Below are positions 15,143-18,252 of a stretch of 64,000 bases of DNA, piece after piece (the first letter of the stretch is position 1; every line of letters starts with the position of its first letter). The translations under genes and the position numbers were made by a program. The stretch lies in assembly GCF_009846865.1 (NCBI RefSeq), contig NZ_WUWN01000001.1, positions 1 to 64,000 on the forward strand, written 5' to 3'. The stretch is from Puerhibacterium puerhi. Lineage in GTDB: Bacteria > Actinomycetota > Actinomycetes > Actinomycetales > Cellulomonadaceae. Under the pieces are notes generated by a model, which ran no database searches, was not told where the DNA came from, and was given only the letters and a program-made list of their open reading frames with translations.

Positions 15143-16195
15143 ATGCGATTCGGACTCTTCATCCCCCAGGGATGGCGCTTCGACCTGACCGACGTCGAGC
15201 CGGCGGACCACTGGAAGACGATGCTGTCTCTCCTCCACTACGCGGACAACGCGGCGGCCGGCGAGGCCGTCCCGGGCGGCCCCTTCGCGTGGGAGTCGGT
15301 CTGGGTCTACGACCACTTCCACACCACGCCGGTCCACAGCACCGAGGCCACCCACGAGGCGTGGACGCTGATGGCGGCGTTCGCGGCGGCGTCGCAGCGC
15401 GTGCGCCTCGGCCAGATGTGCACCTGCATGTCCTACCGGGAGCCCACCTACCTGGCGAAGGTCGCCGCGACGGTCGACCACGTCTCGGGCGGGCGCGTCG
15501 AGATGGGCATCGGCGGCGGCTGGTACGAGCACGAGTGGCGCGCGTACGGCTACGGCTTCCCGTCCGCGGGCGAGCGCCTGCGCGCGCTCGACGAGGGCGT
15601 GCAGATCATGGCCAGCATGTGGCGCACCGGCTCCTCCGGCACGTTCGAGGGCCAGCGCTACCAGGTCGACGGCGCGCTGTGCTACCCGCAGCCGCTGCAG
15701 CAGCTGCCCGTCGGAGCCGACGGCGCGGACGTGCCGAGCATCCCGCTGTGGATCGCCGGCGGCGGCGAGAAGAAGACGCTGCGCATCGCCGCGCAGCACG
15801 CCCAGTACACCAACTTCGACGGCTCGCCCGAGGGCTTCGCGCACAAGTCGGAGGTCCTGGCCCAGCACTGCAAGGACGTGGGCCGCGACTTCGACGAGAT
15901 CACCCGCTCGGCGAACTACAACGTCGTGATCGGCGAGAACCAGGCCGAGATCGACGACCGGCTCGCCTGGATCGACGCGCACTACCGCAAGCACACCCCC
16001 GAGCACGCCGAGGGACAGATCGAGTCGTGGCGCAGCGGCCCGCTGGTCGGCACGCCGGAGCAGATCACCGAGACGCTGCAGGGCCTGAAGGACCAGGGCC
16101 TCGGCTACACGATCACCTACTTCCCGAACGCCGCGGCCGACCGGGACCAGATCGAGCTCTTCCAGCGCCAGGTCATCCCCGAGCTCCAGGACTGA
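15143..16195 (+). CDS. LLM-class F420-dependent oxidoreductase
   Basis: A 350-residue luciferase-like TIM-barrel protein. It begins MRFGLFIPQGWRFDLTDVEP, has SVWVYDHFHT, the barrel motif RVRLGQMCTCMSYREPTYLAKVAATVDHVSGGRVEMGIGGGWYEHEW (written here as a family landmark around residues 90-135) and PLWIAGGGEKKTLRIAA near 205-222. These are hallmarks of actinobacterial F420-dependent LLM proteins; the substrate is unknown. It diverges from nnr over 65 bp. Confidence 0.85.
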   Translation: MRFGLFIPQGWRFDLTDVEPADHWKTMLSLLHYADNAAAGEAVPGGPFAWESVWVYDHFHTTPVHSTEATHEAWTLMAAFAAASQRVRLGQMCTCMSYREPTYLAKVAATVDHVSGGRVEMGIGGGWYEHEWRAYGYGFPSAGERLRALDEGVQIMASMWRTGSSGTFEGQRYQVDGALCYPQPLQQLPVGADGADVPSIPLWIAGGGEKKTLRIAAQHAQYTNFDGSPEGFAHKSEVLAQHCKDVGRDFDEITRSANYNVVIGENQAEIDDRLAWIDAHYRKHTPEHAEGQIESWRSGPLVGTPEQITETLQGLKDQGLGYTITYFPNAAADRDQIELFQRQVIPELQD

Positions 16196-16207
16196 CCGCC
16201 TGCACCG

Positions 16208-16251
16208 ACGGCGACGGCCCGGGACGCGAGCGCGTCCCGGGCCGTCGCCGT
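16208..16251 (+). terminator. terminator after the LLM gene
   Basis: A near-perfect hairpin with 21-base arms (ACGGCGACGGCCCGGGACGC and its complement) and a very short centre, starting 13 bp after the stop codon. No T-tract. Confidence 0.8.
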
Positions 16252-16339
16252 CCCTGGAGGGGTCGGGCACCGTCCGCGAGAGCCGAGGGAGCGCAGCGAC
16301 CGGATCATTCGAGCCGACGGCGCCCAGCCCGGTCAGCGG

Positions 16340-16345
16340 CCTAGC
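16340..16345. repeat. left target-site duplication of the IS481-family element
   Basis: CCTAGC flanks the element directly, matching the copy at 17406-17411. It fits the NCTAGN target preference known for IS481. Its TAG (read on the minus strand) is the stop codon of the transposase. Confidence 0.9.
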
Positions 16346-17312
16346 TGTACTGACCCGGGACGTTGTTGACGCGGTCGATGGGTCGTTGGCCGCCGATGCC
16401 GGTGTGGGGCCGTTCTAGGTTGTAGTGGCTGAGCCAGCCGGGCAAGGCTGCGGTGCGTTGGTCGTTGGAGGTCCATACGCGGGCGTAGGCCCATTCGGTG
16501 GCCAGCGTGCGGTTGAGGCGCTCGGCCTTGCCGTTGGTCCAGGGGCAGTGCGGCTTGATGAACTTCAGCCGGATGCCCAGGGCGGTGGCGGTGTCAGCGA
16601 AGGCGCGCGAGGACCGGTAGTTCTTGGCGTTGTCGCTCAGGACGCGTTCGACGGTGATGCCGTGGGTGGCGTAGAACGCCGCGGCACGGGTCAGGAACCC
16701 GGCGCAGGTGGTGCCCTTCTCGTCGAGGTGGATCTCGGCGTAGGCCAGGCGGGAGTGGTCGTCGATCGCGGTGTGCACATAGTCGTAGCCGATGCCGCGG
16801 CCGCGGACCTGTTCGCTGCGCCCGTGGGCGCGCCAGCCGCCGCCGGCAGGGATGCGGCCGAGCTTCTTGACGTCGATGTGCACCAGTGCCCCGGGATAGG
16901 GGTGCTCGTAGCGGGCCGCCGAGCGGCGTGAGGCCCGGACCGGCGCCCCGGTGAGCGGGTCGCACTCGCGCAGCAGCGGGGTGTGGTGGCGGGCCAAGAC
17001 CCGCCCCACGGTCGAGGCCGGTATCCCCACCCGGCGGGCCAGGTCCACCGGTCCGCGGCGGGCCAGGTGACGCCAGATGCGGATGCGGGTCTCGGTACAC
17101 GCCGGCGTGCGGTGCGGACACGTACGCGGTCGTGAGGGCCGGTCGACCAGCCCCGCCCGACCCTGCTGCTGATAGCGGCGCCACCACCGCCAAGCCGTGG
17201 TGCGCGAGACGCCCATCTCCGCCGCGACGTGCGCGACCGGGCGCCCCGCGGCGATCCGACCGACCATGACCAGTCTCCCGGCAGGCGTCAGCCGGGCATT
17301 AGCGTGGGACAC
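16341..17312 (-). CDS. IS481-family transposase
   Basis: A 323-residue DDE transposase. Residues 8-60 form an HTH (AGRLVMVGRIAAGRPVAHVA, VSRTTAWRWWRRY), and a second HTH-like part follows to about 110. The catalytic triad is D147 (VHIDVKK), D227 (LSDNAKN) and E264 (NGKAERLNR), with 36 residues between the last two. The GTG start has GGAGG at ideal spacing. There is no frameshift, so the enzyme looks intact. The reading frame runs off the left end of the element and stops at TAG in the duplicated target. The SD lies within a hairpin arm. Confidence 0.95.
   Translation of the reverse strand: MSHANARLTPAGRLVMVGRIAAGRPVAHVAAEMGVSRTTAWRWWRRYQQQGRAGLVDRPSRPRTCPHRTPACTETRIRIWRHLARRGPVDLARRVGIPASTVGRVLARHHTPLLRECDPLTGAPVRASRRSAARYEHPYPGALVHIDVKKLGRIPAGGGWRAHGRSEQVRGRGIGYDYVHTAIDDHSRLAYAEIHLDEKGTTCAGFLTRAAAFYATHGITVERVLSDNAKNYRSSRAFADTATALGIRLKFIKPHCPWTNGKAERLNRTLATEWAYARVWTSNDQRTAALPGWLSHYNLERPHTGIGGQRPIDRVNNVPGQYS
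16346..16371. repeat. IS481 terminal inverted repeat, left
   Basis: TGTACTGACCC, then a variable GGGAC block, then GTTGTTGACG. It pairs with 17380-17405. Confidence 0.92.
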
Positions 17313-17375
17313 AAGAGACCTCCGTGCTCGAGTGAGAAGCCGTCAGACAGCTCCCACCCGACACGGAGGTCTCTT
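17313..17375 (-). promoter_or_regulatory. hairpin that hides the transposase ribosome-binding site
   Basis: Two 14-base arms, 17313-17326 and 17362-17375, are perfectly complementary and enclose 35 nt. On the transposase mRNA the 3' arm is CACGGAGGTCTCTT, holding the GGAGG of the transposase and ending next to its GTG. Transcripts entering from acpS contain both arms and would fold; a transcript starting inside the loop would not. Similar fold-back protection is known in IS10 and IS50. Confidence 0.7.
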
Positions 17376-17379
17376 CCTA

Positions 17380-17405
17380 CGTCAACAACCTGGTGGGTCA
17401 GTACA
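17380..17405. repeat. IS481 terminal inverted repeat, right
   Basis: Reverse complement reads TGTACTGACCC, ACCAG, GTTGTTGACG. The TTGACG part faces the transposase and could serve as its -35 box. Confidence 0.92.
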
Positions 17406-17411
17406 CCTAGC
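17406..17411. repeat. right target-site duplication of the IS481-family element
   Basis: CCTAGC. On the minus strand this copy contains the TAG stop codon of acpS. Confidence 0.9.
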
Positions 17412-17757
17412 CCTCCGCCACCACCATCGCCGACGCGATCCCCGCGTCGTGCGAGATCGACAGGTGCCACCGCGTCACCCCGAGCTCCTCCGCCCGCGCC
17501 TGCACCGTGCCGCGCAGCTCCACGCGCGGCGGCCCCCCGAGCACGCGGTGCACGGTCGCGTCGTGCCAGCGCAGGTCGCCGGGCGCGCCGAGGGCCTTGG
17601 CGATGGCCTCCTTGGCGGCGAACCGCGCCGCCAGGGACGACGCCGGCAGGTCGCGCTCCTCGGGCGTGAAGAGCCGCTCGCGCAGCCGCGGCGTGCGCTC
17701 CAGGGTCGCCATGAACCGCTCGACGTCCACCACGTCGATGCCCACGCCCACGATCAC
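17407..17757 (-). CDS. acpS: holo-[acyl-carrier-protein] synthase
   Basis: AcpS transfers the 4'-phosphopantetheine arm of CoA to acyl carrier protein. The 116-residue protein has the two Mg-binding motifs: [14 protein letters not shown] (D8) and [17 protein letters not shown] (residues about 51-67), then the C-terminal [18 protein letters not shown]. The GTG start overlaps the upstream MazG-like stop by 4 bp (GTGA), so the pair is coupled. The IS481 element is inserted exactly at its TAG stop codon; the right target copy keeps the stop, so the protein is unchanged, but native downstream sequence is displaced by 1 kb. Confidence 0.95.
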
Positions 17758-18194
17758 GCGCGCGCCCCCTCCGGCTCGCCGTCGCGCCGCTCGACGCCGT
17801 CCCGCCGCTCGGCCGCGTCCTTCGGCTGGAGGAGGTCCTGCGGCTCGACGAGGTGGCGCCAGCGGAACCACTTGCGCTCCAGCTCGGCGTCGAGGTCGAC
17901 GCCGAACCGCCGCGCCACGAGCAGCAGCTGGGCCAGCACGTCGGCCACCTCGGCGCGGAACGCGGCGTCGGCGTCGTCTGCCGGTCGCCGCGAGCGCCCG
18001 GAGCGGGCCAGGTACGCCTGCACGAGCTCGCCCATCTCCTCGGACAGCTTGAGCACCAGCCAGTCGTCGGTGCGTTCCACGTCGAACCGGCGCTCGTAGA
18101 CCCGGGAGATGACCTCCAGCTCGTCGGCGAGGTCGGCCAGCCGGGTGCCGCCGGCCGGGACGCCCGGGCGGGCGGGCGGGTTCGCGTCGCTCAT
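17754..18194 (-). CDS. MazG-like nucleotide pyrophosphohydrolase
   Basis: A 146-residue all-alpha NTP-PPase. Motif E-E-x2-E appears in [15 protein letters not shown] (E52-E53...E56) and the second acidic helix is [22 protein letters not shown] (E84, D87). These residues bind Mg and the triphosphate. Relatives remove non-canonical NTPs; the substrate here is unknown. The C-terminal 30 residues ([13 protein letters not shown]) are charged and probably disordered. GAGGAT lies 7 nt before the ATG, and GGGAGG is 11 nt away, so either a leaderless or a normal start is possible. It precedes acpS with a 4-bp overlap. Confidence 0.8.
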
Positions 18195-18216
18195 GGGCCC
18201 GATCCTCCCAGACGAC

Positions 18217-18252
18217 GGCGGGGCGGCGAGGTCAGTGCCTCGCCGCCCCGCC
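18217..18252 (-). terminator. glmS terminator
   Basis: A 15-bp perfect stem (GGCGGGGCGGCGAGG and its complement) with the loop TCAGTG, 36 bp beyond the glmS stop. No T-tract. Confidence 0.8.

Follow-up and report, generated by a model that had tools for sequence, protein, structure and literature searches.

Transposases that end on a stop codon supplied by the DNA around them have been described before. IS870 of Agrobacterium vitis, which belongs to the IS5 family, needs its CTAG target to make the stop of its large open reading frame (ORF). We describe here an IS481-family insertion sequence that lies behind acpS, the gene for holo-ACP synthase, in Puerhibacterium puerhi; IS870 differs from it in transposase family. 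The stretch of DNA analysed, referred to as the window, comprises the first 64,000 nucleotides of contig NZ_WUWN01000001.1 (assembly GCF_009846865.1).

Within the IS481 family, transposases without a stop codon of their own were reported in 2008 (PMC2516522), 2016 (PMC4803752) and 2019 (PMC6794481). The first and last of these name the target NCTAGN as the source of the stop and give a 6-bp NCTAGN target duplication for the family; PMC3053399 also gives NCTAGN, together with one insertion at CCTAAC. PMC2516522 itself treats the target-located stop as a known property of the family and refers to Tauch 1998 (Tn5564) and to a nomenclature letter.

Besides IS870, three systems come closest to the window element. 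In ISLxc2 and ISLxx4 of Leifsonia xyli the transposase stop likewise lies within the host site NCTAGN, but an additional in-frame stop is present close to the start of ISLxc2, and the passages of PMC2516522 on these elements do not discuss host stop codons. With TnRErm46 and ISRe46 of Rhodococcus equi, CTAG gives a TAG to the transposase on the right and to some target genes on the left (parB), whose function is reported to be uninterrupted; unlike the bare insertion sequence of the window, TnRErm46 is a 6.9-kb transposon with passenger genes (PMC6794481). ISRme5 of Cupriavidus metallidurans also has no stop codon, and is described as not unique within the family in this respect (PMC4803752). 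The idea of the borrowed stop is not new, both halves of it being present in PMC6794481, and the window element is a clean further example; the present analysis adds counts and sets the insertions beside background CTAG.

The element and its target
The features of the locus are as follows.

16346-17405, minus strand: IS481-family insertion sequence, 1,060 bp, tips TGTACTGACCC / GGGTCAGTACA
16340-16345, no strand: left target duplication, CCTAGC on the plus strand, read directly
17406-17411, no strand: right target duplication, CCTAGC on the plus strand, read directly
16341-17312, minus strand: IS481 transposase ORF, GTG start, stop included (NF033577, 305.4 bits; Pfam)
16341-16343, minus strand: transposase TAG stop within the left duplication, read directly
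17407-17757, minus strand: acpS, holo-ACP synthase (NF000832; C-terminus like that of relatives); start approximate, the mechanical ORF being longer
17407-17409, minus strand: acpS TAG stop within the right duplication, read directly
17313-17375, minus strand: leader hairpin, 14-bp perfect arms 17362-17375 / 17313-17326 (inverted repeat, fold, covariation)
16207-16252, no strand: 21-bp terminator-like hairpin between acpS and the convergent gene, no T run (fold)

The coordinates of the element were read directly from the sequence; an earlier delimitation, 16340-17411, takes in both duplications. On the plus strand the tips are TGTACTGACCC at one end and GGGTCAGTACA at the other, CAGCGG precedes the left CCTAGC and CCTCCG follows the right one; on the minus strand the duplication reads GCTAGG. 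The ends form an imperfect inverted repeat, 34 nt with flank bases and 82% complementary. IS481 elements have terminal inverted repeats with TGT...ACA tips. The window element shares the family's layout, being about 1 kb long with a single ORF and terminal inverted repeats with tips of this kind, and its 6-bp NCTAGN duplication, and the transposase matches NF033577 (transpos_IS481) well above the cut-off of 224 bits as well as the Pfam families rve_3, rve, HTH_28 and LZ_Tnp_IS481. For the family's DDE catalytic triad, the observation here is the set of matches to integrase-core Pfam families. It is the single full-length copy of this element in the genome.

The sequence-only reading held that the right duplication gives acpS its TAG and the left one gives the transposase its TAG, the element having no stop in that frame, and both statements are borne out. 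The final codons of the transposase are TAC AGC TAG, of which TAC and A come from the element and GC TAG from the target, and the TAG (16343-16341) thus begins two bases outside the element. In this phase (...TAC A) any NYTARN target is read as ANY TAR, that is, as a codon ANC or ANT followed by TAG or TAA; because the second codon is always an in-frame stop, the transposase needs none of its own. Insertion in either orientation supplies the stop, since CTAG reads the same on both strands and CTAA on one strand is TTAG on the other. As a side observation, if the tips were joined head to tail as in a circle, directly or with three or six bases between them, the frame would run into a TGA in the left tip (TGTACTGA) or into a retained TAG.

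The gene acpS lies upstream of the transposase on the same strand and ends GAG GGC TAG in the right duplication. Its truncation by the insertion is ruled out by a match to NF000832 that runs to the final position of the profile (2-116 of 116) and by a normal C-terminus: among 24 related loci, 15 had C-termini that were compared (nine gave no printed end), and 12 of the 15 end exactly one residue past the same ...AE motif. The host gene is thus unbroken and keeps its TAG, as had been proposed. Because 14 of the 15 relatives use TGA and one TAG, TAG is an unusual acpS stop in this lineage. An empty site with the original CTAG was not seen in the nearest relative, a genome of the same genus whose acpS is 98% identical, ends AER-TGA and has other DNA behind it.

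These features are very probably the outcome of a plain insertion of an IS481-family element into an NCTAGN site that was, by chance, the acpS stop codon, with hits on stop codons following from the survival of CTAG there and not from recognition of stops. The 6-bp duplication puts an intact CTAG on each side; the copy on the acpS side preserves the acpS TAG in either orientation, and the tip phase places the other TAG, or a TAA, in the transposase frame. Landings on stop codons would then reflect the distribution of CTAG in GC-rich genomes, where it is rare in genes and commoner between them and at TAG stops. The analysis establishes the anatomy, the phase, the target sequence, the spread of the arrangement among relatives and the match to the CTAG background.

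Spread of the borrowed stop among relatives
The survey covered 208 loci: 77 from a scan of genome contigs, 89 from a 296-genome sample of the phylum, 40 from Microbacterium lacticum, the window copy and L113, a sample skewed towards kin of the query and copy-rich genomes. A transposase was located in 206 of them, both tips were then searched for, and removal of 33 duplicates of M. lacticum copies left 173 loci for sorting (L182, L227 and L193 by hand). The stop is borrowed in 111, internal in 26 and not assignable in the rest (23 too distant, 10 broken, 3 with unclear ends); clustering at about 93% identity reduces the set to 73 clusters, of which 37 borrow the stop, 26 have an internal one, 7 are broken and 3 are unclear. 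All 111 borrowed stops are in the identical +2 phase. A second, distant IS481 copy of the same genome as the window (L113, G000:C34:19497-20420) has CCTAGG duplications and also borrows a TAG.

A related element is present in M. lacticum in 40 copies, and every one of the 40 stops in the right-hand target in the same register (38 TAG, 2 TAA), so that the arrangement is more than chance. Plasmid-borne elements extend it further: 10 of 11, drawn from the 40 matches listed of 284 records, borrow their stop (eight called by script, and two by eye, L269 or IS5564 and L272, whose ends the script missed), the remaining one, IS1121, having an internal TGA. The borrowers include elements of Variovorax, Cupriavidus, Burkholderia (ISBcen26), Sinorhizobium, Rhizorhabdus, Phyllobacterium and Rhizobium (ISRel2), Pseudomonadota among them.

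Among 94 borrowed-stop copies with identical duplications the core is CTAG in 89, CTAA in 3 and TTAG in 2, and every one supplies the stop; the CTAG target proposed from the window alone is upheld by these flanks. Internal-stop copies with identical duplications have CTAG in 11 of 12, the remaining one being GGTAGC. Non-YTAR targets number 0 of 94 for borrowed-stop and 2 of 14 for internal-stop copies (L197, GGTAGC; L061, GCTACA; p = 0.016), a post hoc contrast that includes L061 and L063 as scored by eye, each with its duplication offset by one base. A difference in target strictness between the two kinds is only a lead.

Two kinds of unusual reading frame were noted among the relatives. By eye, L065 and L078, kin of internal-stop elements, have lost their internal TGA; since CTAG does not close their phase, the frames continue into the flank. 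In Corynebacterium pacaense all four frames (L058, L059, L060, L062) break at the same place, at about residue 267 of the query, as would be seen either with a broken copy spread in trans or with a programmed frameshift.

Stop codons and the CTAG background
The sequence-only reading had supposed that a CTAG target lets the element insert at gene ends. The distribution of sites was assessed with gene calls from an unvalidated codon-usage script of our own. Of the 40 M. lacticum copies, two that share a left flank with another copy were dropped; matching duplications flank 33 of the other 38, and these 33 form the clean set. Nine of these 33 insertions lie on predicted stops, 16 are intergenic and 8 are within predicted genes, the last figure being far below that for random per-base placement (p = 4e-20). 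In 400 kb of M. lacticum, CTAG occurs 67 times against 1,071 expected from composition; 16 of the 67 sites are on predicted stops, 38 intergenic and 13 in genes, in a sequence with 91% of its bases coding. In the window's own genome, 462,934 sampled bases hold 93 CTAG against 1,034 expected, 20 on stops, 39 intergenic and 34 in genes.

CTAG targeting by itself spares genes, and stop codons are struck because CTAG survives at them. The parts of the earlier claim that stand are the CTAG target, the kept stop of the host gene and the end of the transposase frame in the duplicated target; a preference for stops beyond that for CTAG is not seen, and 8 of 33 insertions are in genes.

An alternative is that genes are spared by selection after insertion and not by CTAG placement. 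Insertions into essential genes would be invisible in surviving genomes, and 25 of the 33 clean insertions lie outside predicted genes; uninserted CTAG sites, though, are distributed alike (54 of 67 outside genes), so that no extra filtering is needed, and we regard the alternative as improbable. Long-term selection may have shaped where CTAG survives.

More improbable still is the view that stops are sought as such, with the transposase or some partner of it responding to stop codons, to gene ends or to termination. The 9 of 33 landings on predicted stops, like the acpS case, are what such seeking would give, but uninserted CTAG is on stops equally often (16 of 67; Fisher p = 0.81), the in-gene shares are also alike (8 of 33 against 13 of 67; p = 0.61), and the orientation of the transposase to the struck gene is even, with four on the same strand and five on the opposite one. 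Compared with background CTAG, stop-codon seeking is unsupported. That the window copy is an accident, its own normal stop having been lost by mutation, is hardly credible: internal-stop relatives do exist (26 of 173) and L065 and L078 lost theirs, but the nine-row clade of the window copy borrows throughout, the +2 phase is shared by all 111 loci, and the internal-stop elements examined have another phase at their end, one that CTAG would leave open.

Several facts weigh against the simple-insertion account given above. Internal-stop relatives still target CTAG, so that stop-borrowing and CTAG targeting are separable. PMC4803752 reports transposases of 333, 463, 321 and 321 amino acids for four ISRme5 copies, so that in this element the frame is not always closed immediately by the target. 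In L015, whose stop-less transposase is otherwise complete, the right flank is GCTATC and the frame continues for 266 nt (the left flank of L015 lies beyond the contig, hence the target duplication is not comparable), and L192, with one extra base between tip and GCTAG, misses the TAG. The site census, for its part, depends on the unvalidated gene calls. The coupling of a stop-less frame to a CTAG target is strong, not absolute: the link between target choice and frame end advanced by the sequence-only reading survives the check proposed with it, 111 of 173 loci ending in a target TAG or TAA against 26 with an internal stop, but it is not strict, as the CTAG-targeting internal-stop relatives and the varied ISRme5 copies attest.

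The nine M. lacticum genes with an insertion on the stop include five with a clear Pfam match (helicases at L150 and L162, a major facilitator superfamily (MFS) protein at L156 and transposases at L152 and L169); L171 has a marginal match, L139 one below the cut-off, and L154 and L159 none. At L152 (2991-4004) and L169 (3114-4004), judged by eye, the insertion used the stop of another transposase gene. The gene struck at L152 is itself IS481-type and its TAG is apparently its own borrowed target, one duplication having served as the next target. Five of the 38 M. lacticum copies (L147, L148, L160, L165, L173) have unequal flanking hexamers and four (L142, L143, L144, L160) partly shared flanks, which points either to copies having recombined with one another or to artefacts at contig ends.

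Relative age of the two stop states
For 71 transposases a quick tree was made with no mixture model and with the last 15 residues of each row omitted. Rooted, by the author's choice, on six plasmid-borne Pseudomonadota rows, it has borrowed stops in all early branches, with the internal stop arising within, and every row of the nine-row clade that contains the window copy borrows its stop. Five changes between the two states are required, and starred branches force at least four; one change involves L199 and L233, a long-branch pair (the other long-branch warnings concern L257, and L246 with L252). This rough tree suggests that the borrowed stop is the older state. The absence of a stop and CTAG targeting have presumably been held together by selection.

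A hairpin over the transposase start
The leader of the transposase can form a hairpin (17313-17375) with a predicted free energy of -49.3 kcal/mol (z -6.59; none of 200 shuffles equally stable). Its 3' arm contains the Shine-Dalgarno motif GGAGG, immediately ahead of the GTG start. The best fold pairs four or more of the five Shine-Dalgarno bases in 51 of 56 non-redundant leaders, a count made with an automatic choice of start that falls too early in some (L113 and L177, for example), six being excluded and five having no found start; from another set of leaders 8 of 77 were dropped. Among the Pseudomonadota leaders folded, the hairpin covers the ATG itself in five of seven.

Pairing of the arms was examined in a fixed register anchored on GGAGG and CC[TC]CC, which admitted 45 of the 56 leaders and left out 11. 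The five bases after GGAGG and the five before CCTCC pair at all five positions in 39 leaders, at four in 4 and at one in 2 (L188, L246). Across the 17 different combinations of arms, pairing occurs at 74 of 85 positions, compared with a mean of 55.7 when the arms are re-dealt, and none of 20,000 permutations that ignore relatedness reaches that number. RNAalifold on a MAFFT alignment of the 56 leaders predicted no pairs, since loop lengths differ and the arms fall out of register in a plain alignment. Taken together, the fold, the leader count and the covariation indicate a ribosome binding site that is covered and a cover that is conserved as structure; a hairpin with covarying arms is predicted to hide the start signals of the transposase in most of the relatives sampled.

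Hairpins that hide the start in transposase mRNA are known from IS10, IS50 and IS200; in elements of this type they stop transcripts that arrive from outside from being translated, but not those made from the element's own promoter. The structure in IS200 mRNA is treated in PMC3196728; for IS481, no report of one was found in searches of open-licence papers.

The transposase sits 94 nt behind acpS in the same direction, and the 21-bp hairpin (-53.3 kcal/mol, z -7.30; no match in the terminator scan) that was formerly behind acpS now lies beyond the element. Scanning of 16150-18250 gave no sigma-70-like promoters and no T-run terminators, and Rfam gave six matches in 16200-17800 with E values up to 1, all far below gathering scores. 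A transcript leaving acpS would carry both arms of the leader hairpin and would be expected to be translated poorly, whereas one begun by the element itself inside the loop might escape. In this way the hairpin could protect the element against transcripts running in from the host gene ahead of it; alternatively, it might just keep the transposase low regardless of the source of the transcript.

Implications
A broader proposal, which we put forward tentatively and consider rather doubtful as a whole, is that IS481 is built for silence behind host genes: its stop borrowed from the target, the host stop spared, and a leader hairpin blocking translation of transcripts from the host gene, here acpS, with the stop-less frame older than internal stops. 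If that were so, the choice of target, the sparing of genes and the insulation would together make up a single lifestyle, and insulation by the hairpin would account for the quiet of such elements directly behind expressed genes.

For annotation, the borrowed stop means that the gene ends of such elements can be miscalled, or a host gene thought to be hit, and a stop owned by the target explains one-residue differences in the C-terminus between copies. The counts show that a transposon need not recognise genes to be kept out of coding DNA in GC-rich genomes: a target of four bases is enough.
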